Part shown: in pieces, positions 3,411 through 58,457 of the stretch
Layout: each line of letters begins with the position of its first letter
Numbering within the stretch: the first letter of the stretch is position 1
NCBI GenBank assembly: GCA_022824405.1
Contig: JAJDZZ010000045.1
Coordinates: 1-64,000, forward strand
Direction: 5' to 3'
Length of the DNA stretch: 64,000 nt
DNA from: Opitutales bacterium
Lineage (GTDB): Bacteria; Verrucomicrobiota; Verrucomicrobiia; Opitutales; UBA2995
Made by a program: the position numbers and the translations under genes
Notes under the pieces: model-generated
The model's database searches: none
Told to the model about the DNA's origin: nothing
Seen by the model: only the letters and a program-made list of their open reading frames with translations

Positions 3411-3791
3411 TTGGGGTTCAATTCTTTGGTCCAGGGTTGCCAAGGATGCCTTTCTTTTAACGGCCAGCGCCAGCAGGTATAGATCGGTGAGGTGTTTTGA
3501 ACCTGAGAGTCTCGGAATAGCCTTTCGGTCGAGCAGGGAGAGATCATCGCTCCAGAACTGGTGCCCCGGATAATTCACCAGGGATTTCAGCACCATACGT
3601 GCTTCCTCGATCTCCCGCCCGAATCCGGGATATGCGGCGTGACCTAAAATGCGCACGAAGCCATTTTCCGTGATGGGGCAGGTGGCCCATGCCTGGCGAG
3701 CCGGCGAAAAAAACCAACTCCGCGTCCGCTGGTGGTGCACGTGGCCGGCATCTACCAGGGCCAACAGAACGTTGATATCCAGCAAGTGCAT
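3354..3791 (-). CDS. vapC: PIN-domain toxin, VapC family
   Basis: A 145-residue PIN-domain ribonuclease, the expected toxin of a type II VapBC pair. The acidic residues that bind metal in PIN domains are visible at D5 (LLDIN), E42 (TENGF), D103 (LTDLY) and D121 (TLDQR). It starts 7 bp after the stop of the antitoxin gene, so the two are co-transcribed. Its last residues, LCVLRALGES, and its stop codon are spelled by the dispersed CTCTCGCCAAGAGCGC repeat read in reverse, so the original C-terminus may have been replaced. VapC toxins usually cleave tRNA or rRNA; the target here is unknown. Confidence 0.85.
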   Translation of the reverse strand: MHLLDINVLLALVDAGHVHHQRTRSWFFSPARQAWATCPITENGFVRILGHAAYPGFGREIEEARMVLKSLVNYPGHQFWSDDLSLLDRKAIPRLSGSKHLTDLYLLALAVKRKASLATLDQRIEPQLIPGGAGSLCVLRALGES

Positions 3792-3798
3792 GACGGGG

Positions 3799-4050
3799 TC
3801 AGATACCCAACTCTTCCATCATATGGTAGACCATTTCGCTGGTTACCCTGGAATCGCGCTTCTTCTTCAAAAGGGGCAGCCCATGTTCATCGATGAAAAA
3901 CGAGTTCCGTTGGTCTCGCCGGGGCAGATCGCCCTCTATTTCCCTTTTCAAAGCGTGCTCCACCATGGCCTTTAGGGTGGTCCGTCGGCGGGCGGCGGTT
4001 GCCTTCGCTTCCGCCAGCAACTCGTCGGGAAGATCGATGGTCGTTTTCAT
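3799..4050 (-). CDS. vapB: Ribbon-helix-helix antitoxin, VapB type
   Basis: An 83-residue protein whose N-terminus MKTTIDLPDELLAEAK is a typical ribbon-helix-helix strand and helix used for dimerisation and DNA binding. The C-terminal half is the region that normally wraps the PIN toxin. Antitoxin comes first in the operon and vapC follows after 7 bp. The pair probably represses its own promoter through an upstream palindrome (see 4065-4082). Length and order match classical VapBC pairs. Confidence 0.8.
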   Translation of the reverse strand: MKTTIDLPDELLAEAKATAARRRTTLKAMVEHALKREIEGDLPRRDQRNSFFIDEHGLPLLKKKRDSRVTSEMVYHMMEELGI

Positions 4051-6765: not shown

Positions 6766-7470
6766 ATGGGACGCCATTTACTTTTCTCCTGTTTCAGGAT
6801 CCTGCTTTGCTTAACGAGCTTTGTCTTCGTGGCCCGAGCGGACAAAGGATTTGAACCGATTTTCGATGGCAAATCTCTCGCTGGCTGGCACGCGTTTCCA
6901 CCGGAAAGCTCCGTCGATTGGTCAGTGGTCAATGGGATCATCCGGGGAAAGGGTTCCGCCAAGAGACAATCCTACCTGGTTTGGCGCGACGAGAATCTCG
7001 GAGACTTCGAACTCAAGTTCAGCTATCGAATCCCCGGTCGCGTAAATACCGGAGTTTCCATTAGGATGCGGCCGGACACGACCGGAAAAAGGGCCTTTGA
7101 AAGTTACCACGCCGATATTGGCCATGTCGGTATCGGTCCCCAAATACTGGGCGCTTGGGACTTCCACTTTGCCACCAGAAAAGAATATCCCTGCAAACGA
7201 GGGACGAGCCTGGTCATTGAAACGGATGGAAGCTTCACAACCGAGCCCATCGAAGATTGCCTTACTCTCGAGGACATTCACCCCCAGCAATGGAATGAGG
7301 CGCATGTCATCGCGCAGGGGAATTACTTTCGCTTCTTTATCAACGGCAAGTTATCTTCGGAGTTCACGGATAATTCTCCCGATTATTTTACCCAAGGAAC
7401 CATAGGGCTCCAAATTCACGACCCCGGAATGTCGGTGGAATTCAGGGACGTTCGGTTGAAACGGCTCTAG
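6766..7470 (+). CDS. Secreted DUF1080 (3-keto-disaccharide hydrolase-like) protein
   Basis: A 234-residue protein with an N-terminal signal peptide (about residues 1-25) followed directly by GFEPIFDGKSLAGWH, the hallmark of DUF1080, a concanavalin-like beta sandwich. The ending GLQIHDPGMSVEFRDVRLKRL is also typical. Members are abundant in Verrucomicrobia and Planctomycetes and are linked to carbohydrate breakdown; one branch hydrolyses 3-keto-disaccharides. Length is typical. The terminal CTC TAG overlaps a repeat word (CTAGCCCGCATGT) that is found again at both ends of the MITE-like element at 52.2-52.5 kb. Confidence 0.85.
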   Translation: MGRHLLFSCFRILLCLTSFVFVARADKGFEPIFDGKSLAGWHAFPPESSVDWSVVNGIIRGKGSAKRQSYLVWRDENLGDFELKFSYRIPGRVNTGVSIRMRPDTTGKRAFESYHADIGHVGIGPQILGAWDFHFATRKEYPCKRGTSLVIETDGSFTTEPIEDCLTLEDIHPQQWNEAHVIAQGNYFRFFINGKLSSEFTDNSPDYFTQGTIGLQIHDPGMSVEFRDVRLKRL

Positions 7471-8077
7471 CCCGCATGTAGCACAAACTTCGTAGCGGGC
7501 GGACAAAGATCGAGTGATCCTCGATGCTGGATTAGCTCTCGCCAAGATCGCAAAGGGCCCAAAGAAGGTGAGAAAAGGCAAAATAAGTTGTAGGAGAAGG
7601 TTTATCCCCCGATTGCGGTGAGGCCCTTTGGAAGATCGGGGGATAAACCCCCTCCTACAGTTCTCCAAAACATCATCCCAGGAAAATTGAGCTCTTTCCA
7701 AGATTCACTTCAGCTCACCCGCCAACTTCCAAATCGAAACAGTCCTCATTCTTCATTCCTAATTCCTAATTGGCGCCTCCGCGCGCCTCTCATCCTGTCT
7801 ATCCTGGTAATCCATGTTTTTACTTCAGAATCTTGGCGAGAGTCCTTCCGTTTTTTCGATTACGATCATGATCACGATTAATTTCAGCGCCTTTAGCCTT
7901 CTTCCTCCATCCTTCTTCCTTTTCTCCCCTCTCTGTGTCCTCTGGGACCTCTGTGCTTCATCTTCTCTCCCATCCTGTTCGCGTTTCTTTGCGATCTCTG
8001 CGAGAGTCAATTTCTGGATGCCGGATGCCGGATGCCGGGTTGACGGTATTCCATAACGCGCCTTAATCTGGCTTAGC
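7467..8077. repeat. Mosaic repeat block with a REP pair
   Basis: It starts with CTAGCCCGCATGTAGCACAA over the DUF1080 stop, then GATGCTGGATTAGCTCTCGCC. An inverted pair of REP-like hairpins follows (7590-7658). After that come inverted copies of AATTAGGAAT/GGCGCC, ATCCTG/TAATCCATGTT, GATCATGATCACGATTA, GCCTTTAGCC, CCTCTGTGTCCTCTGGGACC and CTCTGCGAGAGTC. A short GGATGCC tandem sits near 8018-8036. No gene is seen. Confidence 0.8.
7590..7658. repeat. Inverted pair of REP-like elements
   Basis: GTAGGAGAAGGTTTATCC followed by CCCGAT (7590-7613) and its inverted partner ATCGGGGGATAAACCCCC plus TCCTAC (7635-7658) face each other. Each has the GTAG foot and imperfect palindrome typical of REP sequences mobilised by RAYT transposases. 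A tail-to-tail pair is the BIME arrangement. Single copies occur at 14710 and 18546. Confidence 0.7.
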
Positions 8078-12887: not shown

Positions 12888-13240
12888 CCTAGGCGCGCCA
12901 ATCAGAGATTAACCACAGAGGACACAGAGGTTAAAAAGGCTGAAGGCTAAAGGCTGAAGGCAGAAGGAATGGCCTCTCGCAAAGAGCGCAAAGGACGCAA
13001 AGATTCTGAGGAAAAAACATGGATTAACAAGATGTTCAGGATTTGAATTATCCATGAAATCCGTGGTTAACCTTATCCCTGCCTTTTGAGTCTTTTGTGC
13101 CTCTTGTGGCTATATCCAGCGCCCTCGGGCGCTTCCGTTTCGTTAGTGGTCAGTGGTTAGTTTCTCCCCATCTTTCGATCACGATAACGATTATTCAGCC
13201 TTTAGCCTTCAGCCTTTATTATCTCTGCGAGAGATGCGGG
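12888..13240. repeat. Mosaic repeat block upstream of the second sulfatase
   Basis: AGGCGCGCCAATCAG, GAGATTAACCACAGAGGACA, GGCTGAAGGCTAAAGGCTG, CTCTCGCAAAGAGCGCAAAG, AACATGGATTAACAAGATG, ATCCATG/ATCCGTGG, CCAGCGCCCTCGGGCGC, CGATCACGATAACGATTA, then GCCTTTAGCC/TTCAGCC. No gene is seen. The sulfatase on the left starts at 12843 and the one on the right at 13291. Confidence 0.8.
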
Positions 13241-13290
13241 TTAAGCTTTGAATCGGTTGACTCCGCAAGCTGGGTCAAGTTCAGTAGGCA

Positions 13291-46645: not shown

Positions 46646-48100
46646 ATGGACAATTTCCATGCCATGGCGCTCCGTATCACCCTATCGCTTTGCCTCCTGA
46701 TGACCTTTGGGTACGCTGGGGCCTCCCCTCCCAATATCGTTTACATCATGGCCGATGAACTGGCCTATTTCGAGTTGGGGCACATGGGAAACCCCCATAT
46801 CAAGACGCCCCATATCGACCGGATGGCCCGTGAAGGGCTGCGTTTTACCAACGCATTGGCCGCCTCCCCCGTTTGCGCTCCTTTGCGTTGCAGCCTCATG
46901 ACCGGCAAACACGCCGGCCATGCCTCGGTGCGAAAGAACGACGGCGGCACTCCCCTGAGGGCCGATGAGGAAACCATCGCCTCTCTATTGAAAGGCAAGG
47001 GCTATGCCACCGGTGGATTCGGGAAATGGGGGGCCGGGGGCAGGGATTCCACCGGGGTTCCGGAGAAACACGGTTTCGATGTCTTTGTCGGATACTACGA
47101 CCAGGTCCATGCCCACAGTTTTTACCCCCCTTACCTCATCCGCAATAGCGAAGAGGTGCCCCTGGAAGGGAACACAGGTGGCCGGAGCGGGCCTTCCTAC
47201 TCCCATTACCACATCATGGAGGCGGGGTTGACCTTTATCCGCGAAAACAGGGATGGCCCGTTTTTTGCCTACTTTCCCATCACGCCACCCCACGGGATGT
47301 ACGATATTCCGGCAGACGATGCGGCTTGGTTGCGTTACCGCGGGGAGAGCTGGGTGCAAGATCCGGCCATCGACCGGGATATAAAAAATTACGCGGCCAT
47401 GGTGACGATGGTGGATAACGACGTCGGGACCATTCTGGCCCTGCTCAGGGAACTCGGTCTGGAGGACAATACCATCGTCTTCTTTACCGGAGACAATGGG
47501 GGGCAGGACCGTTTCAAAAGCGCGGAAAATCCCCGCGGCTTTTTTGGGCCCAACGTAAATCCGCATACGGGAGTGGCCTTTCGCGGGGGCAAGGGGAACC
47601 TCTACGAAGGGGGCCTCAAAATTCCCTTTCTGGTTCGTTGGCCCGGCAGGATAAAGACCGGCCAAGTGAGTGATTTCGTCTTTTCCCAGGTGGATATCCT
47701 GGCCACCCTGGCCGAACTCACCGGAGCGGATATCCCGACCGATACGGATGGAAGCTCCATACTTCCCGAGATCCTGGGGCAATCGGACCGAAAACGCAGT
47801 CAGGAAATATTCTATTGGGAATTCAGGGGACAGAGGGCAGTGCGCCATGGGGATTGGAAGGCCATCCAACCGGGAGATGACAAAACCTGGGAACTGTATG
47901 ATTTGGCTGCCGATATCGAGGAATCCACCTCATTGGCCGCAACCCATCCGGAGATACTGGCCCAAATGAAGGCCTTCGCCGAGGCTGCCCACGAGCCGGA
48001 ACGGCCTGGGACTTTTCTCGATCCGCTGCGGCAAAGGCACGAGCGGGACCGCTGGGCCAAATGGGGGACTTCCAGAAGCACGCCAAGGGGCGCGAATTAG
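46646..48100 (+). CDS. Secreted sulfatase (family S1)
   Basis: A 484-residue S1 sulfatase divergent from the TRAP operon. A signal peptide lies within residues 8-26. The formylglycine signature C-A-P-L-R is at 77-81. Metal-binding residues are in MADELAYFELG (Asp-Glu instead of the more common Asp-Asp) and FFTGDNGGQ. Its position suggests that desulfation and deacetylation act on the same polysaccharide. ATG 46646 or 46664 may be used; 46622 is too long. The C-terminal RGAN and TAG stop are spelled by a GGCGCG/AATTAG repeat. Confidence 0.92.
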   Translation: MDNFHAMALRITLSLCLLMTFGYAGASPPNIVYIMADELAYFELGHMGNPHIKTPHIDRMAREGLRFTNALAASPVCAPLRCSLMTGKHAGHASVRKNDGGTPLRADEETIASLLKGKGYATGGFGKWGAGGRDSTGVPEKHGFDVFVGYYDQVHAHSFYPPYLIRNSEEVPLEGNTGGRSGPSYSHYHIMEAGLTFIRENRDGPFFAYFPITPPHGMYDIPADDAAWLRYRGESWVQDPAIDRDIKNYAAMVTMVDNDVGTILALLRELGLEDNTIVFFTGDNGGQDRFKSAENPRGFFGPNVNPHTGVAFRGGKGNLYEGGLKIPFLVRWPGRIKTGQVSDFVFSQVDILATLAELTGADIPTDTDGSSILPEILGQSDRKRSQEIFYWEFRGQRAVRHGDWKAIQPGDDKTWELYDLAADIEESTSLAATHPEILAQMKAFAEAAHEPERPGTFLDPLRQRHERDRWAKWGTSRSTPRGAN

Positions 48101-48205
48101 GAATTAGGTATTAGGAATTGGGAATTGGGGGATCACGATCAGGATTAAGAACCCAGCAACGAGGAATTACCTCTCGCAGAGCACGCAAAGCACGCCAAGA
48201 GGCGC
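48075..48205. repeat. Mosaic repeat block
   Basis: It starts in the last sulfatase codons: CACGCCAAGGGGCGCGAATT with AGGAATTAGG units, then GATCACGATCAGGATTAAG, CCTCTCGCAGAGCACGCAAAG and GAGGCGCCCCCGGCGCCCC. It lies between two convergent genes. Confidence 0.75.
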
Positions 48206-48234
48206 CCCCGGCGCCCCTGAAAATTGACGACCGG

Positions 48235-49116
48235 TTATTGTTCTTCCTCTTCTTCTTCGGTTTCTCTGCCCAAAACTTCGATCTCACCGATTTCCACGCG
48301 GGAACTGTCGGTCACACGCTTGCTATTGATGCCCTGGAGGTTTTTTCCGAAGAAATCGGCCGCCACGTAATTCATATCCTTAACTGCCTGCTCAAACGTT
48401 TGGCCGATAGTCCTGATGCTGTAGCGGGTGGACCAATGTAACTTGAGTTCCCCTGCCTTCAAGAGCGGGTAATCGTAAGCCATCAAAATGATGAAATAGC
48501 GTTCTTCATCGAGCATGTATTTCAAATTCTCGGCATCCTGGCGGGAAGTCCGGGGGCTGAAAGCTTCCTCCAAACCGAGCAATTGTGCCTTGAAATAGGA
48601 GGATCGCTCGTTCTCTCCGGCCATGGCCTCGGTTGTATTGAGGTTGAAGTTGAAATTGTTGATGGCATCGATGGTGGAAAATTCCAGGGCGGTTCCTCCG
48701 GCCCCTGCCGTGGCAATCTCCTCGGTGTAACCCAGATCTTCCAAAGAATTTATAGCGAACATCTCTTCATAGGATGGTTCGTAATCCGTTGCCCCGTAGT
48801 GGATAACGATGAGCAGATCTCCCTCTTTGGGATCCTTGTGCGGGTAGAAGTTCTGTTTCTGCAGATTCACAGCCAGATTTTGCACGACGTCGTCCAAAGT
48901 GACTTTTTCCATGCTCGGATCTTTCACATTACCTGAAAAATAGCGGCCCAGAATAAATTGATAGGTTTGGATTTTCTTGTTTTCATCCAGGGCGCGAGCC
49001 TTGGTAAATTCCTCCGAGGCGACGGCCTTGATGAGAATTCGATTGGCGGCGGGGAGGCCATTGACCGAAAGGATCAAAAGGGCCAGTGGAGCAAGAAATC
49101 GCAGGAAATGGGGCAT
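48235..49116 (-). CDS. Exported protein of unknown function with acidic tail
   Basis: A 293-residue protein that I do not recognise. Start 49116 gives a clean signal peptide (residues 4-22, FLRFLAPLALLILSVNG). The mature part has YQFILGRYFSGNVKDPSMEK, DLLIVIHYGATDYEP and YFIILMAYDYPLL, which reads as a mixed alpha/beta lipoprotein-like fold. It ends with a run of Glu. Related proteins seem limited to Opitutae-type bacteria, but that is my impression, not a search result. The open frame to 49260 is rejected because it reads through the divergent promoter region. Confidence 0.6.
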   Translation of the reverse strand: MPHFLRFLAPLALLILSVNGLPAANRILIKAVASEEFTKARALDENKKIQTYQFILGRYFSGNVKDPSMEKVTLDDVVQNLAVNLQKQNFYPHKDPKEGDLLIVIHYGATDYEPSYEEMFAINSLEDLGYTEEIATAGAGGTALEFSTIDAINNFNFNLNTTEAMAGENERSSYFKAQLLGLEEAFSPRTSRQDAENLKYMLDEERYFIILMAYDYPLLKAGELKLHWSTRYSIRTIGQTFEQAVKDMNYVAADFFGKNLQGINSKRVTDSSRVEIGEIEVLGRETEEEEEEQ

Positions 49117-49346
49117 TTTTCGTTTATATTTCAGATGGGGGGCTGTTACCGATAACGTTGAAAAGACCAAATTGGTTTCAGTCCCGAAAAGGTCAAGTGG
49201 GGATAGGGTTCCATCGATTGGGGAGAGACGGAACGCAATCGACCGGAATGGAAATCTCACAAGTCGGACGCTCCAATAAGCCGCAAATCAATTTTATTTT
49301 TGATTGCGCTCCCCTGGGATTAGGACAAGTTTTGGGCAAATAGCAT
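49117..49346. other. Divergent promoter region before the thiamine operon
   Basis: This gap lies between the exported unknown gene and the TPP riboswitch. It has no repeat words and no gene. An AT-rich stretch AATCAATTTTATTTTTGATT (about 49287-49306) with inverted AATCAA/TTGATT ends may hold the thiC promoter or a hairpin. Confidence 0.4.
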
Positions 49347-51439
<2,093 letters not shown>

Positions 51440-51445
51440 CGGATC

Positions 51446-51649
51446 ATGAGGATTACGGTTAACGATAAGGTAACGACATTGCTTGAGCCGGTTTCCCTTT
51501 TCGAGTTGCTGGACCATCTCAAACTCGTAAACAGGAAAGGGGTGGCGGTAGCGGTCAACCGGGAGGTCGTCCCGCGGCGCATCTGGCGTGAATGCCAACT
51601 GGACGACGGGGACGGGGTAACTGTGATTGAAGCGACTCAGGGGGGTTAG
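51446..51649 (+). CDS. thiS: Sulfur carrier protein ThiS
   Basis: A 67-residue ubiquitin-like protein ending in Gly-Gly (EATQGG), the site that is adenylated by ThiF and then carries sulfur for the thiazole ring as thiocarboxylate. VNDKVTTLLEP and VAVAVNREVVPRRIW are typical. It starts 6 bp after thiC. Confidence 0.95.
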   Translation: MRITVNDKVTTLLEPVSLFELLDHLKLVNRKGVAVAVNREVVPRRIWRECQLDDGDGVTVIEATQGG

Positions 51650-51653
51650 AGAA

Positions 51654-52508
51654 TTGGAAATTATTGTCCTATCTCCTGAAGGTGAGTATCCGGGCGAGCG
51701 CCAATGGGTCGGCCGGTTGTTTGCCGCCGGTTTGCACCGGTATCACCTGCGCAAACCGGGCTGGGAAGATGCCGAATTCGAAGCCTTTCTGGAAAATATT
51801 CCCCGGGACTGGCGGCCAAAGGTGGTCGTTCATCAATGCCATCGAGCGGTTGAAAAATACCACCTGGGAGGGTGGCATTGCAAAGACCGGGAGGAGCAAT
51901 TGAAAACGATCCCGCCGCTACGCCAAAGCGTTCCATTCCCTGCCACTCTGAGCCGGTCCATTCACCGGTTGGATGACCTCCGCGGGGATCTCACCTCCTG
52001 GGACTACGTTTTTCTGAGCCCGGTTTACCGGTCCATTACCAAGGCGAATTACGGGCCGCGGTGGGAGCGAACAGAGTTGGAGGGCGCCATTCGCCGCTGC
52101 AAGGAGTCGTCTTCGGCCAAGGTATACGCCTTGGGAGGGGTTGAACCGGCCAACATCCCCGATTGTGCTCTGATGGGATTCGATGGGGTGGCTCTTCTGG
52201 GCGCCATATGGTCGTCCCATCATCCAATCCGGAGGTTCAGGGAAGCACTAGCCTGCATGTCTCACTTACCGAGCGAATGCGACATCTCCCAATTTTCTAC
52301 TGCGCGCCCGAATACCGGCGCTGGAGCGGGAATCGCTGGATTTCATGCCCGTGCTTCGCACAGATGCATGCCGACTTTGCAGGGTGTCGACCCAGCTTCA
52401 CCCGCGAATCGGCACGAAACCCGCGCCAGCACTCGATCTTCAACCGCTCGTGACGAATTTTGTGAGACATGCGGGCTAGAAGCGATCAACTTGCCTGTTC
52501 TGCCATGA
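51654..52508 (+). CDS. TenI-like thiamine phosphate synthase paralogue with a C-terminal extension
   Basis: A 284-residue protein. Residues 1-200 form a TIM barrel of the ThiE/TenI family: IIVLSPEGEYPGE, HLRKPGW, GWHCKDRE, YVFLSPVYRSITKANYG and GFDGVALLGAIW. TenI relatives isomerise the thiazole or join the two halves of thiamine. TTG 51654 is chosen because it follows GGGGGG at the thiS stop. From residue about 199 on, the tail of roughly 80 residues is encoded mainly by a MITE-like element (52248-52479). The stop overlaps the thiE start (ATGA), so translation of thiE stays coupled. Confidence 0.8.
   Translation: MEIIVLSPEGEYPGERQWVGRLFAAGLHRYHLRKPGWEDAEFEAFLENIPRDWRPKVVVHQCHRAVEKYHLGGWHCKDREEQLKTIPPLRQSVPFPATLSRSIHRLDDLRGDLTSWDYVFLSPVYRSITKANYGPRWERTELEGAIRRCKESSSAKVYALGGVEPANIPDCALMGFDGVALLGAIWSSHHPIRRFREALACMSHLPSECDISQFSTARPNTGAGAGIAGFHARASHRCMPTLQGVDPASPANRHETRASTRSSTARDEFCETCGLEAINLPVLP
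52248..52479. mobile_element. MITE-like element with 18-bp inverted ends, inserted in the TenI-like gene
   Basis: CTAGCCTGCATGTCTCAC (52248-52265) and GTGAGACATGCGGGCTAG (52462-52479) are inverted repeats with one mismatch, enclosing 196 bp. The family similarity of the TenI-like protein ends at the left border. A copy of the same end (CTAGCCCGCATGT with a CACAAA tail) lies at 7467-7488 over another stop codon. No transposase is inside. A target-site duplication is not clear; AAGC is found near both borders. Confidence 0.65.
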
Positions 52509-53161
52509 ATGCGTTTTTTTTGCAGTGCATTACCTTGGATGGCATTGGGCTATCCCATGCGGAACAGGTTGAACAATTCTGTGAAGCCGGCGCCAAATGG
52601 ATCCAATTGCGCATGAAAAGCGCGGCTCCGCACGTGGTGGAGAGAACCGTCCGGGAGGTATTGCCCGTTTGCCGGGACCGCAATGTCATGTTGATCGTGA
52701 ACGATCATTTCCAGGTGGCCCTGGAGACGGGAGCCGGAGGGGTGCACCTGGGCAAAACCGATATTCCCTGGGATGAGGCGCGTTCCATTGCCGGACCGGA
52801 AATGGTCATAGGCGGCACGGTAAATTCGCTGGCGGATGCCCGAGCGGCGTTGGCCAGCCGCTCGCTGGACTACGTTGGGGTGGGGCCGTTCCGCCAGACA
52901 AAGACGAAGGAAAACCTGGCCCCTGTTCTCGGGAAGGTCGATCTGGAGGAAATCGTCGAATTTCTAGGAGATCTCCCCAAGGTCATCATTGGCGGCGTGA
53001 CCCCTGCCGACTTGCCCGCCATCGCCGATCTCGGCGCCGATGGAGTGGCCGTATCTTCAGGTTTATGGAACGGACGGACCCTCGCCGCCAACCTGAAAGC
53101 CTATTTGATTGCGTGGCCGGTAGTAGAAGTGAGTGGGTCGACCACCCCCAGCCCTATTTAA
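52505..53161 (+). CDS. thiE: Thiamine phosphate synthase ThiE
   Basis: A 218-residue TIM barrel that joins HMP diphosphate with thiazole phosphate. [54 protein letters not shown] and [14 protein letters not shown] are the canonical motifs with phosphate and Mg ligands. The ATG overlaps the stop of the TenI-like gene. thiG follows after 5 bp. Confidence 0.94.
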
Positions 53162-53166
53162 GAATC

Positions 53167-53946
53167 ATGAGAACAGAACCCTTGACCCTGGCAGACCGGA
53201 CCTTTGCATCGCGCTTGTTTTTGGGAACCGGCAAGTATGCATCGGGCCCTGAAATGGCGCAGAGTCTGGCCGCGAGCGGCACCCAGTTGGTGACGATGGC
53301 CATGCGACGGGTGACCTTCGATGGAAGCGAAGACCCGATCATGGATTTCATAGATCGGGACCGGTATGACATCCTGCCCAATACTTCGGGTGTGCGGGAC
53401 GCCAAGGAGGCGATATTTGCAGCCGAGTTGGCTCGGGAAGCCCTGGAAACGCATTGGCTGAAATTGGAAATCCATCCCGATCCCAAGTACCTGATGCCGG
53501 ATCCGATGGAAACGTTGAAAGCGACCGAGGAGTTGGTGAAACGCGGATTTGTGGTATTGCCCTACATCCACGCCGATCCCGTCGTATGCAAACAGTTGGA
53601 AGAGGCCGGAGCGGCCGCCGTCATGCCCCTGGGGGCTCCGATAGGCAGCAACCAGGGATTGGAGGCGAAACGGTTCCTCGAAATCATTATGGAACAGAGT
53701 AATGTGCCGGTGGTCGTAGACGCCGGTTTGGGCGTTCCCTCCCACGCGGCCGAAGCCTTGGAAATGGGAGCCGATGCGGTTCTGGTCAATACCGCCATTG
53801 CCACGGCGAAAGACCCCGTGGCCATGGGGGAGGCCTTCAGGTTGGCCGTTGAGGCAGGGCGTCTGGCCTATGAAGCGGGCCGGGGAGTTCAATCCCGGGA
53901 AGCTGTAGCCTCTTCCCCGTTAACCACTTTTTTGAGGGGGAATTGA
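53167..53946 (+). CDS. thiG: Thiazole synthase ThiG
   Basis: A 259-residue TIM barrel that forms the thiazole ring from DXP, ThiS thiocarboxylate and dehydroglycine. [44 protein letters not shown] (with the Schiff-base Lys), [15 protein letters not shown], and [20 protein letters not shown] are intact. The start 53167 is a clear ATG; an open frame from 53065 is rejected. Confidence 0.95.
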
Positions 53947-53947
53947 G

Positions 53948-55096
53948 GTGAGTTTTCTGGAACAATTCAGCCAATTCGATTGGGATCGGGTCTCCGCAAG
54001 TATCCGGGGAAAATCCCTCAAGGATGTCGATTCGGCTCTGGTCAAGCCGGATGGACGGTTGGATCTGGAGGATTTCAAGGCTCTGATATCCCCCGCCGCC
54101 ACTCCCCGCCTGGAGCAAATGGCCCAACGGAGCCATCGCATGACGGTGGAGCGGTTCGGACGCATCCAGCAACTCTATGCCCCCCTTTATCTATCCAATG
54201 TCTGCAGCAACGTTTGCACTTATTGCGGTTTCAGCGCCATCAATCGCATTCCCCGAAAAATTCTTACGGAATCCGAAATGGCCTTGGAGTACCAAGCTTT
54301 AAAGGAAATGGGTATAGACCATATCCTGCTGGTAACCGGCGAGGCCAACCGGCGGGTCGGGGTGGAATACCTCATCGGCGCCTTGAAAATGGCCCGTGGG
54401 TATTTCTCCAGCATATCCATCGAGGTCCAACCCCTCGACCGGGAAGCCTACGAGGCGCTCATTCCGCATGGACTCAGCTCCGTCCTGGTCTACCAGGAAA
54501 CCTACAACCGGGAAGCCTACGGGGATTATCACCTCAGTGGGATGAAAAAGAATTTCGACTACCGTCTGGAAACACCCGACCGTTTGGGCCGTTCCGGGGT
54601 GAAGAAAATCGGATTGGGCGCGCTTTACGGCTTGGAGGATTGGAGAACGGACACCTTTTTTGTGGCCCTGCATTTGAATTACCTGGAGAAGCAGTATTGG
54701 AAAACGCGTTACAGTATTTCCTTTCCCCGCATTCGTCCCCATGCCGGGGATCAACAACCCAGGTCGCTCATGACGGACCGCGATCTCGTGCAGGTCATCT
54801 GTGCCTATCGCATATTCAACCGGGAACTGGAACTTTCCCTTTCCACCCGCGAGAGCGAGTTATTTCGCGACCATGCCTTCAAACTGGGAATAACGATCAT
54901 GAGCGCCGGGTCCAAGACCAATCCCGGCGGTTACCGGGTGGAGCCCCAGTCCCTGGAACAGTTTGAAATCTCCGATGAGCGCAGTCCGGCCCGGATTGCA
55001 GAGATGCTGCGCCGGGAAGGTTATGAGCCGGTTTGGAAAGACTGGGATTCCACCTATGACGGATTCCCGGCCAAGGCCAGCCTGATTGAGGTATGA
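53948..55096 (+). CDS. thiH: 2-iminoacetate synthase ThiH
   Basis: A 382-residue radical SAM enzyme that cleaves tyrosine to dehydroglycine for the thiazole ring. The cluster motif CSNVCTYCGF (CxxxCxxC) is at residues about 88-97. GEANRRVGVEYL, VYQETYNREAYG, KIGLGALYGLEDWR and SFPRIRPHAG are family blocks. It starts with GTG one base after the thiG stop and its stop overlaps thiF (ATGA). Use of ThiH rather than ThiO fits anaerobic or low-oxygen life but also occurs in aerobes. Confidence 0.95.
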   Translation: MSFLEQFSQFDWDRVSASIRGKSLKDVDSALVKPDGRLDLEDFKALISPAATPRLEQMAQRSHRMTVERFGRIQQLYAPLYLSNVCSNVCTYCGFSAINRIPRKILTESEMALEYQALKEMGIDHILLVTGEANRRVGVEYLIGALKMARGYFSSISIEVQPLDREAYEALIPHGLSSVLVYQETYNREAYGDYHLSGMKKNFDYRLETPDRLGRSGVKKIGLGALYGLEDWRTDTFFVALHLNYLEKQYWKTRYSISFPRIRPHAGDQQPRSLMTDRDLVQVICAYRIFNRELELSLSTRESELFRDHAFKLGITIMSAGSKTNPGGYRVEPQSLEQFEISDERSPARIAEMLRREGYEPVWKDWDSTYDGFPAKASLIEV

Positions 55097-56220
55097 GCGC
55101 TTTGACGCCAGAGGAAGTCCTGCGCTACCAGCGACACCTGACCCTGCCTCAATTTGGGGAAAAGGCCCAGTTGCAGTTGAAAGAAAGCCGCGTACTGGTG
55201 ATTGGAGCGGGTGGACTGGGTTGCCCCGCCCTGCAGTACATGGCCGCGGCCGGGGTGGGCAGGCTCGGCATCGTCGATTTTGACCGGGTCGATGTTTCAA
55301 ACCTGCAACGGCAGATCCTTTTTACAGAGGATGACGTGGGAAAGCCCAAAGCGGAAGTCGCAGCCGAACGATTGAAACGCATGAATCCCTGCATTGAAGT
55401 AGAGGCGATGAATGTGCGATTTGGCGCCGACAATGCCCTGGAAATTTTGAGCCGTTACGACCTCATAGTGGATGGCTCAGACAATTTTCCCACTCGTTAC
55501 CTGGTGAACGACGCCTGCGTATTGGCTGGAAAGCCATTGATTTATGGGGCCATTCATACCTTTCAGGGTCAGGTCAGTGTGTTCAATTTCCAAGGCGGGC
55601 CAACTTATCGCTGCCTGTTTGCCCAACCGCCCGATCCCGGAGATGCGCCCAATTGTGCGGAGATTGGCGTATTGGGTGTCCTTCCCGGGATCATCGGAAC
55701 CGCCCAGGCCTGTGAAGCCATCAAGGTCATAACCGGCGTGGGGGAACCGCTGTCGGGAAAGTTGCTGATGTGGGATGCCCTGAGCATGAAGCAGCAGGTT
55801 ATCAGATTCAGTCGCGATCCGGACCTTCCTCCCATAACAGAACTCAGGGAGATCGAATTTGCCTGCCCAGGGCCTGATCTGCCCGATGGCGCGGAAATCG
55901 AAACAGGCGCCTTCAGGTCTCTCATCGAGGGGGGTTCACCCGTTCAGGTGCTGGATGTGCGGCTTGGCTGGGAACGCGCCATGGCGAAAATAGATTCCGT
56001 GCACATTCCCCTGGGAGATCTGCGGAGTGGGCGGGCGGACCCAGGCCAGGCCGGCCTCGATCCGCAGGTTCCTACCGTAGTGTATTGCCGGAGCGGGCAG
56101 CGCAGCCTGAATGCCCGGCAGGTTTTGGCCGATCGTTATTCTTTCTCCCAGGTCTTCAGCCTTAAAGGGGGTATTAAGGAATGGGCCCGGCAATTCGATC
56201 CGTCACTTCGCGTCTACTAA
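55093..56220 (+). CDS. thiF: ThiF/MoeB-type adenylyltransferase with rhodanese domain
   Basis: A 375-residue E1-like enzyme. RYQRHLTLPQFGEKAQ, the nucleotide loop VIGAGGLGCPALQY, DFDRVDVSNLQRQ and DGSDNFPTRYLVND show an intact adenylation domain. YRCLFAQPPDPGDAPNC and GVLGVLPGIIG follow. Residues about 280-375 are a rhodanese domain with the persulfide Cys in YCRSGQRS. In this operon it should activate ThiS and deliver sulfur. MoeB or molybdopterin use is the alternative. The zinc CxxC pairs of E. coli ThiF are not seen. Confidence 0.92.
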   Translation: MSALTPEEVLRYQRHLTLPQFGEKAQLQLKESRVLVIGAGGLGCPALQYMAAAGVGRLGIVDFDRVDVSNLQRQILFTEDDVGKPKAEVAAERLKRMNPCIEVEAMNVRFGADNALEILSRYDLIVDGSDNFPTRYLVNDACVLAGKPLIYGAIHTFQGQVSVFNFQGGPTYRCLFAQPPDPGDAPNCAEIGVLGVLPGIIGTAQACEAIKVITGVGEPLSGKLLMWDALSMKQQVIRFSRDPDLPPITELREIEFACPGPDLPDGAEIETGAFRSLIEGGSPVQVLDVRLGWERAMAKIDSVHIPLGDLRSGRADPGQAGLDPQVPTVVYCRSGQRSLNARQVLADRYSFSQVFSLKGGIKEWARQFDPSLRVY

Positions 56221-57023
56221 AAATACGGTTTACCATTTTGGCCGGCCATCCCCCATTTGTCCTTACCGTATCCGGATCGGACGCTTCCGGTGGGTCCGGT
56301 CTGCAGGCTGACAATCGCGCCATACTGAATCGCGGTGGATTTCCGCTCAATGTGGTTACCGCCCTCACCCTGCAAACCCCGACCGGCGTGCAATCGATCG
56401 ATACCTGCGACCCCGAGCAGGTTCGCCTGCACCTGAGCGGACTTTTGAAATCCTATCCGGTGAAATCCATTAAAACGGGGATGTTGGGAAACGGTGGTAT
56501 GGTGAAGGTTGTGACAGAGGTAATTTCTCAGTTCCGTCAAATTCCTCTGGTGGTGGACCCGGTGATGCGATCCACCAGCGGTTGTTCCCTATTGGATGAG
56601 GATGGCATCCGGGAACTGAAAAATGAGCTGTTGCCAATATGCGATCTGGTTACACCGAACCTGACCGAATTGACCGAATTGACGGGACGTGATAGCATTT
56701 TGTCCGGATCCGATGAGTCGGATGCCGCCCGACAGTTGCTCGAAACCGGTTGCGGGGCCGTTTTGGTCAAGGGCGGGCATCGCAAGGGAGATTCAGTGAG
56801 TGATATGCTGTATTCACGCGATGGAAAACAGGAATTCCCCGGCCAACGCGTCGATACGCCCAACACCCGTGGGACCGGTTGCTCGCTGGCTTCCGCCATC
56901 GCGGCCGGATTGGCCGGCGGCCGCGATTTGCAAACGGCCATTGAGCGGGCCAAGTCGATGGTGCAGAACAGTTTGGAACTCCATAAGGACGACCTTTGGC
57001 CGGGAAGTGGGCCCGCTTTGTAA
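56181..57023 (+). CDS. thiD: Hydroxymethylpyrimidine (phosphate) kinase ThiD
   Basis: A 280-residue ribokinase-fold enzyme that makes HMP diphosphate. VSGSDASGGSGLQADNRA, SIKTGMLGN, VVDPVMRSTSGCSLL, LVTPNLTELTELTG, VLVKGGHR and NTRGTGCSLASAIAAGLA are diagnostic. ATG 56181 overlaps thiF by 40 bp; TTG 56238 would give a more usual N-terminus. It is the last gene of the thiamine operon. Confidence 0.93.
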   Translation: MGPAIRSVTSRLLKIRFTILAGHPPFVLTVSGSDASGGSGLQADNRAILNRGGFPLNVVTALTLQTPTGVQSIDTCDPEQVRLHLSGLLKSYPVKSIKTGMLGNGGMVKVVTEVISQFRQIPLVVDPVMRSTSGCSLLDEDGIRELKNELLPICDLVTPNLTELTELTGRDSILSGSDESDAARQLLETGCGAVLVKGGHRKGDSVSDMLYSRDGKQEFPGQRVDTPNTRGTGCSLASAIAAGLAGGRDLQTAIERAKSMVQNSLELHKDDLWPGSGPAL

Positions 57024-57090
57024 CCCCATTTGGGGAGGTTGGCAAAGCCACTCCTTGCCAAAAAGTAAGGAAAATGAAAAAAATTGGGCA

Positions 57091-57327
57091 ATGATTGTGA
57101 CGATTACCAGTAAAGGGCAAATCACCTTGCCGGCGTCTGTTCGCAAAGAACTGAAAATCAAGACCGGCGATAAGTTGGATATGGAGGTTACCCCCGATGG
57201 AGCGATACTGGGGAGACCTGTTACAAATGATCTTTCCTCCCTGGCGGAGGTGCTGCCTCGGGCAAAGCGGAGGTTGAGCCTGGAAGAAATGGATGCCGCC
57301 ATTCTAAGGGGAGTGTCCGGAATATAG
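57091..57327 (+). CDS. AbrB/MazE-type antitoxin-like DNA-binding protein
   Basis: A 78-residue protein. IVTITSKGQITLPASVRKELKIKTGDKLDM is a textbook SpoVT-AbrB swapped-hairpin domain (quoted parts: TSKGQITLPASVRKELKI). The C-terminal part LSLEEMDAAILRGV resembles tails of antitoxins that pair with PIN toxins. Yet no toxin follows: two bases after its stop begins a gene for the C-terminal half of a SWIM zinc-finger protein. It may be an orphan antitoxin or the regulator of that unusual pair. A Shine-Dalgarno-like AAGGAAAA lies upstream. Confidence 0.85.
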   Translation: MIVTITSKGQITLPASVRKELKIKTGDKLDMEVTPDGAILGRPVTNDLSSLAEVLPRAKRRLSLEEMDAAILRGVSGI

Positions 57328-57329
57328 CG

Positions 57330-58457
57330 ATGAACCGAAAATTGAACGAAGATGGTTCCGCAAAAAAGCAAGACGTCGAATTGAAAGGGGACCTTGATAT
57401 GGTTCTGGTCGACAGATTCGGTCAGTGCGGTGAAGGCCTGGAACACTTCTGGGGTATGCCCCGCCTCGGAAGCGATTGGTCGGCCATGAGAGATTGGTTG
57501 AAGCGCCGTTTGGAAGCACACGAGATGACTGATTCCCATGACTATGAGAGAAACCAGATCTCCAACTGGCTGATTCTCACCTTGGAAAAGACTGGGTGTG
57601 AGAACGAGATAATACCCTTATGCGAACGCGAAGCGCCGATCACACTCAGCTATGACCGCTTGGTGGCTCGCCTCATTAGAGAGCGCCGTTGGGATGAGGC
57701 CCTCCGCTGGTGTCTGCGGGGAATGGATGCGGTATCCGACAAGTATTCAGGCGTCGAAGAAATCCTTCATGGGCAGTTACGGACGATCCATGAGCTTAGC
57801 GGCAATCCTCTCGCCGGATTGGCCATCGAGGCGGAGAAGTTTTTTGCTTCTCCCGACTTGAGCGGTTTCCAACATTTATGCATGGCCGCCGGCAAGCAAG
57901 GGATCGGCAAAGGGGTCGATGCTTGGGCGCGGCACTTTCTTGAAACAGGCCGCCGACCTGATTCCGTTAAGAATACCAGGATCGACCCGGAAACCGACTG
58001 GCCCCTGCCCGCTTCGGAAATCAAGATACCTGAATTTTCTCCGGTCACTGAGGCGCCTATGACCGGGATACTGATCCGGTTGGCTATTTCTGAGAAAAAG
58101 CCTGAAGAGGCGCTGAAATGGTACGACCATGAACACCACGATAGAGGAGGATCTCATCTATCGGATTTTTCCCTCGATACCGAGGTGGCCGAGGCGGTTG
58201 GGTCTACCCACCCGGATCGGGCTATAGCGATTTGGAAGAAAATTGCGGAGAAACATATAGCCCGGGTACAGCGCAGCGGGTATGAGGCAGCGGCTCCCTA
58301 CCTGCGCAGGGTAAAAAAGGCGTTCATCCGGACCAGCCGCAAGCAGGATTGGGAGGCGTATCTGGCTTCTTTGCGAAAGAGGAACAGCCGTCGACCGCGG
58401 TGCATGGAGGTGCTGGACCGGCTGAAGGTAGAGCCTCGGAGAATTATCGATACTTAG
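57330..58457 (+). CDS. C-terminal-half SWIM zinc-finger-type protein lacking the finger
   Basis: A 375-residue protein without signal peptide. From about residue 75 it resembles the helical, TPR-like C-terminal half of large SWIM zinc-finger proteins: NWLILTLEKTGCENEIIPLCE, RRWDEALRWCLRGMD, EEALKWYDHEHHD, HPDRAIAIWKKIAEKHIA, and YLRRVKKAFIRTSRKQDWEAYLASLR (quoted as YLRRVKKAFIRTSRKQDWEA). The SWIM CxCxnCxH motif and the N-terminal half are absent. It is directly downstream of an AbrB-type antitoxin with a 2-bp gap. Function is unknown; the family assignment is from memory of the motif pattern. Confidence 0.65.
   Translation: MNRKLNEDGSAKKQDVELKGDLDMVLVDRFGQCGEGLEHFWGMPRLGSDWSAMRDWLKRRLEAHEMTDSHDYERNQISNWLILTLEKTGCENEIIPLCEREAPITLSYDRLVARLIRERRWDEALRWCLRGMDAVSDKYSGVEEILHGQLRTIHELSGNPLAGLAIEAEKFFASPDLSGFQHLCMAAGKQGIGKGVDAWARHFLETGRRPDSVKNTRIDPETDWPLPASEIKIPEFSPVTEAPMTGILIRLAISEKKPEEALKWYDHEHHDRGGSHLSDFSLDTEVAEAVGSTHPDRAIAIWKKIAEKHIARVQRSGYEAAAPYLRRVKKAFIRTSRKQDWEAYLASLRKRNSRRPRCMEVLDRLKVEPRRIIDT

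Follow-up and report, generated by a model that had tools for sequence, protein, structure and literature searches.

Several kinds of miniature repeat are known to enter bacterial protein genes without closing the reading frame. In passages of a 2024 review, Rickettsia palindromic elements (RPEs) are presented as inverted-repeat elements of about 150 bp that have entered many unrelated protein genes in frame; such invasion of proteins by miniature elements is there held to be most frequent in the RPEs, and a similar process outside Rickettsia to be conceivable (PMC10969869). The enterobacterial RU-1/ERIC, RU-2, and RU-3 are MITE-like repeats of 103-168 bp with open frames that have been found inside annotated genes, some of them having signal peptides (PMC2759123), and the QMITEs of Coxiella burnetii are reported as in-frame gene insertions, one of which extends EnhC at its C-terminus (PMC5896051). 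In-frame insertion by miniature elements is already known, and the family described below, found in a 64,000-nucleotide stretch of an Opitutales genome (hereafter the window; the genome, G000, comprises 3.39 Mb in 92 contigs and is 96% complete), is another such case. No report of this family was found in the open-licence literature on IS1380 MITEs, miniature elements of Verrucomicrobia, and IS1380 in Opitutales.

The copy from which the analysis started lies in a TenI-like gene that overlaps thiE (Table 1). It is marked by an inverted repeat with 18-nt arms, 94% complementary and 196 nt apart (52248-52265 and 52462-52479). The original prediction described a 232-bp element with 18-bp inverted ends and one mismatch; the repeat bears this out, and the block is now resolved into an element proper of 224 bp and a duplicated CTAG, the net insertion in the gene being 228 bp, or 76 codons. 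The inverted ends of the family measure 14 bp, with the core CCCGCATNTCTCA. The copy is built from a 173-bp core and two modules, of 24 and 27 bp, both of which recur in other copies; frame +0 is the only one of its six frames that is open, and six-frame reading of the copies gave no transposase-sized frame inside the element. The element RNA folds at -98.5 kcal/mol (z -5.8 versus shuffles), as the inverted ends imply, and no Rfam match was obtained at the gathering threshold in positions 48000-58000. An ATG at 52469, in the right end, is in frame with thiE and, as read from the sequence only, would add 12 residues.

Table 1. Features of the TenI-like gene, the inserted element, and the neighbouring genes, in positions of the window.
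Feature	Position	Strand	Remarks
ThiS-like ORF upstream (name presumed from its sequence)	51446..51649	+	Aligns to the sister locus
TenI/ThiE-like ORF (TMP-TENI)	51654..52508	+	TTG start, stop at 52506-52508; 284 aa including the insertion; Pfam PF02581 2.8e-11, residues 17-185
Left target-site duplication CTAG	52248..52251	.	In phase as codon CTA; 4-bp direct duplication family-wide
MITE copy, 224 bp	52252..52475	+	With CTAG reads LACMSHLPSECDISQ...FCETCG in frame +0
Left terminal inverted repeat CCTGCATGTCTCAC	52252..52265	+	One mismatch versus the right end
24-bp module	52265..52288	+	In 197-bp copies, not in the 173-bp core; edge set by alignment, could move one base
27-bp module	52342..52368	+	In 200-bp copies, not in the 173-bp core; edge set by alignment
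Right terminal inverted repeat GTGAGACATGCGGG	52462..52475	+	
Right target-site duplication CTAG	52476..52479	.	
C-terminal host codons past the insert	52476..52508	+	Second codon onward aligns with sister EAISLPVLP*
thiE (TMP-TENI)	52505..53161	+	Pfam PF02581 2.9e-47; start ATG and TenI-like stop overlap in ATGA

If translation starts at the TTG, residue 199 is the first of the inserted block. Similarity to the TenI family ends at the left border, as had been predicted, and picks up past the right border with EAINLPVLP (EAISLPVLP in the sister species), ten codons and the stop coming after the element. The frame does stay open through the element and the insertion does add codons, but the tail of about 80 residues that had been envisaged is not terminal, since these host codons make the insert an internal one of 76 codons. 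In the AlphaFold model of the protein residues 1-200 come in blocks with pLDDT of 87-97, and residues 215-284 fall below 50; the insert is predicted to be a disordered appendage beside an intact TenI-like barrel, a picture that the low pLDDT fits without proving it. A candidate insert-bearing peptide of this protein is CMPTLQGVDPASPANR.

The sister species (G001) carries the same operon without the element, and the two loci align with a single 228-bp gap (76 codons); its protein ends in EAKEAISLPVLP, where that of the window has EA, the insert, and ten residues. The empty site that was looked for is thus present, in agreement with insertion by a MITE-like element. It reads AAAG where the window has CTAG, so that CTAG is, base by base, a putative ancestral target for this copy. 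In the family relatives G001-G007 the TenI-like protein is 206-208 aa long, with the insert in none (0/7) and the ATGA overlap with thiE in all (7/7); nor does the same insert occur in any of 80 named TenI-like loci. The idea that coupling to thiE was kept despite the insertion stands in that the overlap is there, but its presence in all seven relatives makes it ancestral, a property of host sequence beyond the element; the operon was probably spared polar damage. Between G000 and G001 the TenI-like gene is constrained (dN/dS 0.23-0.26; 0.15-0.17 for thiE). It is also worth mentioning that in G019, which belongs to a different family of the order, a single 429-residue open frame unites a TenI-like part with an apparently ThiE-like one (C19, L071).

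Other copies of the ends, anticipated in the original prediction, are numerous: the window genome gave 67 BLAST matches of the element and 88 ends with up to two mismatches (reversed control, 0), and within the window the end pattern has four matches with up to three mismatches versus 0.13 expected. Two more single family ends, each without a partner end, lie in the window at 7468-7484 and 13227-13243. At up to one mismatch, the 36 genomes searched contain 49 ends in G000, 231 in G001, 20 in G007, four in G010, two in G004, and one in G003; exact-match ends occur in four of 372 genomes of the order, and in large numbers only in the two genomes of this genus, to which the family at high copy number is restricted. 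A census counting copies with both ends at up to three mismatches each and up to four together yielded 83 full-length copies (G000, 21; G001, 62); it is incomplete, as it covers fetched stretches only, and holds at least one mis-call (L078). Lengths are mostly 116-266 bp, 173 bp being the commonest (28 of 83 copies). Exact 4-bp duplications border 50 of the 83 copies (7/21 in G000 and 43/62 in G001), the duplicated 4-mers being CTAG, TTAA, TTAG, CTAA, and CTAT, with ATAA and TCAA once each; in a list of 64 candidate pairs, looser than the census and including chance pairs, 27 have such a duplication versus 7.6 by shuffling. Copies of at least 150 bp are nearer the consensus in G001 (91% identity, 42 copies) than in G000 (86%, 21 copies), so the activity of the family is probably more recent in the former. 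Insertions are polymorphic between the two species, with empty sites in both directions. The elements are thus MITEs, being short, inverted at their ends, transposase-free, bordered by a target duplication, and present in many dispersed polymorphic copies. In one of them (L104, G000 C79:73212-73442) another short repeat is nested in the left end.

The TenI-like case is not isolated, as ten of the 83 full-length copies lie in frame inside nine Pfam-supported genes. The hosts in G000 are the genes for the TenI-like protein, a sulfatase, PSCyt1/2 (DUF1549), an AraC-type HTH_18 protein, and YidD; those in G001 encode GH39, a DnaE-type polymerase, DUF1573, a PstS-type protein, and, again, YidD. The element is read in sense frame +0 in eight of the nine, and on the opposite strand in the sulfatase gene. 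For six genes a same-genus empty orthologue is available, with a gap at the site that is always a multiple of three: 228 bp in the TenI-like gene, 201 bp in PSCyt, 204 bp in the sulfatase, 129 bp in DnaE, 177 bp in PstS, and 240 bp in DUF1573, the last locus differing by a further 42 bp upstream. The orthologue search returned no such empty orthologue for the AraC-type and GH39 genes. The DnaE-type gene is continuous and insert-free in G000, G002, G003, G004, and G005, where the joined stretch is 96% and 81-83% identical; G001 has a second DnaE-type polymerase gene (open frame 1310), so the interrupted one need not encode the replicative enzyme. The pstS case (L176, G001 C13, near 3690-3990) is ambiguous, since the ATG of the orthologue reads AGG in G001 beside the in-frame copy, and the sulfatase case, in which the element falls within the presumed signal peptide, is, as another N-terminal one, likewise open to another reading. 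In G000, upstream of the pstS-like gene that is the orthologue of the occupied one, two family-like right ends stand in tandem (L102, C77:46866-46904). Several through-ORFs were not counted as host genes: those of L012, L194, L190, and L013 have no Pfam match, and in that of L204 the DHquinase_II domain begins past a probable start downstream of the element. Those of L208, L212, and L224 were left out of both the host-gene count and the Pfam scan.

Most copies are intergenic: in 66 of the 82 that have enough flank, none of the frames spanning the reconstructed empty site stays open over 100 codons; selection against gene disruption would explain this majority, with no special targeting needed. 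For every copy the empty-site ORFs spanning the junction were reconstructed and their larger halves scanned with Pfam. The insertion fails to preserve 48 of the 63 frames with at least 20 residues per side. The scan comprised 50 proteins: three through-frames, and the larger half of every unpreserved frame except that of thiE in the window (47 in all). Among these 50 proteins, a set blind to Pfam-less genes and to shorter halves, no Pfam gene is broken out of frame: the matches at L123, L135, and L231 start downstream of the element, that at L229 ends before it, and at L078, where the right end was mis-called inside a dehydrogenase gene, the TonB_C match is on the other strand, away from the element. 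An ambiguous signal-peptide-like ORF with a shifted frame (L254) falls outside the scanned set. Codon-usage scoring, with long window ORFs and not curated genes as the training set, separated sense from antisense weakly and scored the in-frame AraC gene poorly; it was replaced by Pfam as a gene finder. Of 49 well-bordered copies, 30 have a net length divisible by three. Their 294 frames include 33 that are open and at the same time in register, so a random insertion into a gene would keep the frame about once in nine.

The YidD gene allows one such insert to be followed over time. It occupies an identical position in the two species, with M-x-x-F...E before it and KAPRRIAIG after it, and is absent from G002-G006. 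Over its 60 codons G000 and G001 differ at 24 positions, with no indel and no stop; dN is 0.149 and dS 0.140 for the element, versus 0.072 and 0.233 for the YidD body. The frame has thus been kept while the residues were free to change. None of the few residues between the element and the YidD domain is a methionine; translation of the domain in G001 therefore seems to require passage through the element. Taken together with the predicted disorder of the TenI-like insert, this neutral drift suggests that the extra residues are most probably ballast that the protein tolerates, and not a function.

The window copy could also be an ordinary, recent insertion that happened to fall in frame in a dispensable, decaying paralogue, with no family-wide pattern behind it. 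The intergenic position of most copies agrees with this, as does the standing of the TenI-like protein as a second, weaker TMP-TENI protein. Coding selection was likewise not found family-wide at the residue level: 28 gapless 173-bp copies have no synonymous bias in frame +0, their ratio of nonsynonymous to synonymous changes being 1.37 times that expected. A gene that is kept in all family relatives, and is constrained between two species, is nevertheless hard to call decaying; in-frame copies in nine host genes, with no Pfam gene found broken, and a YidD insert held in frame through a species split further speak against mere chance, and we regard this explanation as doubtful.

Selection could, on the other hand, have made the family translatable by favouring a length divisible by three and, in the phase of the target, a frame free of stops, both of which would ease entry into genes. 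Net lengths divisible by three occur in 53 of the 83 copies, and 9 of the 13 distinct lengths above 173 bp give such a value. Among the 28 gapless copies of the core, 24 have frame +0 open, versus 19.8 when the consensus is mutated in simulation, and new stops number 3 versus 10.8 expected (sd 3.1). Yet 28 of the 53 share one length and are probably one lineage, shorter variants have no excess of multiples of three (7 of 22 distinct lengths), and the P value for open frames is only about 0.05, from copies that are not independent and with a frame already open in the consensus. As the amino acids of the element are not conserved either, selection of this kind appears unlikely.

As to the transposon lineage, the family can, by its ends and its 4-bp duplication, be assigned with some reserve to IS1380, the matching ends being those of an element from another family of the order. 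In that genome (G010) an intact IS1380 transposase (PF13701, 3e-157) lies between the ends CCCGCATTTCTCA and CCCGGATTTCTCA, which match the family end core at 13/13 and 12/13 bases. In G009, of the same order, an IS1380 element is bordered by CTAG on both sides, and in the window genome an N-terminal remnant of an IS1380 transposase ends in a family-like end (C63:36876); the assignment derives from these three observations. A 408-codon open frame of IS1380 transposase type is also present in G000, at a contig edge and with no family end adjoining (L157, C17:138-1124); an intact IS1380 transposase with family ends was not found in this genome. Elsewhere in G000 (L101, C76:8407-9285) a RAYT-like ORF with the motif MPDHLHLLV and REP-like repeats occur between two family ends. 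The MPDHLHLL of this ORF is, we presume, the motif of RAYT proteins, and could point to a RAYT/REP-type element moved by a Y1 transposase; target duplications are, however, not expected of Y1 transposases, the ORF accompanies a different repeat and was met at one place only among the copies read, and the family ends match IS1380, so this origin is very improbable and the ORF is taken as a nested neighbour, not as a parent. The least probable origin is an IS630/Tc1-mariner-type MITE with a TA duplication inside CTAG, suggested by the TA at both borders of most well-preserved copies and refuted by direct duplications of four bases, whose non-palindromic forms (CTAA/CTAA, TTAG/TTAG, CTAT/CTAT) rule out a 2-bp one, and by the absence of a DDE_3 transposase from the genome.

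The preferred reading is that a MITE, probably of IS1380 type, entered the TenI-like gene at CTAG, that other copies of the family lie in frame in eight further Pfam-supported genes, and that the added peptide is most likely ballast, which as a whole we consider highly probable. An IS1380-type transposase acting in trans would make staggered cuts, four bases apart, at YTAR sites. In this gene the element went into a CTAG in the last codons, and the four bases were duplicated. The phase of the target sets CTA in frame, and the sole open frame of the copy is the one read; because this stop-free frame is that of the host and 228 bp are added, the end of the gene stays in register, and with it the ATGA shared with thiE. 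For the family as a whole, the 173-bp core and 4 bp make 59 codons open in frame +0, whereby about one in nine combinations of orientation and phase may be tolerated within genes; other phases within genes would mostly be lost by selection, leaving the in-frame survivors.

Tentatively, it may be suggested that in this family of Verrucomicrobiota the element is a translatable one, whether by origin or later, in which a length divisible by three and a frame stop-free at the CTAG phase allow repeated entry into genes as a neutral linker. If so, new protein segments could later evolve from such linkers, whose hosts include a DNA polymerase and YidD, and the RPE-like invasion of proteins would be a recurrent outcome of MITEs, no peculiarity of Rickettsia. 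The value of the system lies in a transposon lineage that can be named and in a pair of sister species, each of which supplies empty alleles for sites occupied in the other; the shared YidD insertion can be dated by divergence. Whether inserts are neutral ballast, as YidD suggests, and why it is mostly in-frame ones that persist in genes can both be tested here.

In comparison with known systems, the IS1380-family elements of G010 and G009 resemble the MITE described here in ends such as CCCGCATTTCTCA and in their YTAR/CTAG borders, whereas the MITE encodes no transposase. The enterobacterial RU-1/ERIC, RU-2, and RU-3 and the Coxiella QMITEs belong to other hosts and are likened to it by description; moreover, the QMITE in EnhC supplies the last residues of the protein, while the TenI-like insert is followed by host codons. 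A likeness of description also holds with the RPEs, which likewise enter unrelated genes in frame again and again (nine Pfam-supported ones here). The family differs from them in that the lineage can be named by its IS1380-type ends and 4-bp YTAR duplication, that the host belongs to the Opitutales, in another phylum, that most copies lie between genes, and that the frame of one shared insertion can be followed across a species split.
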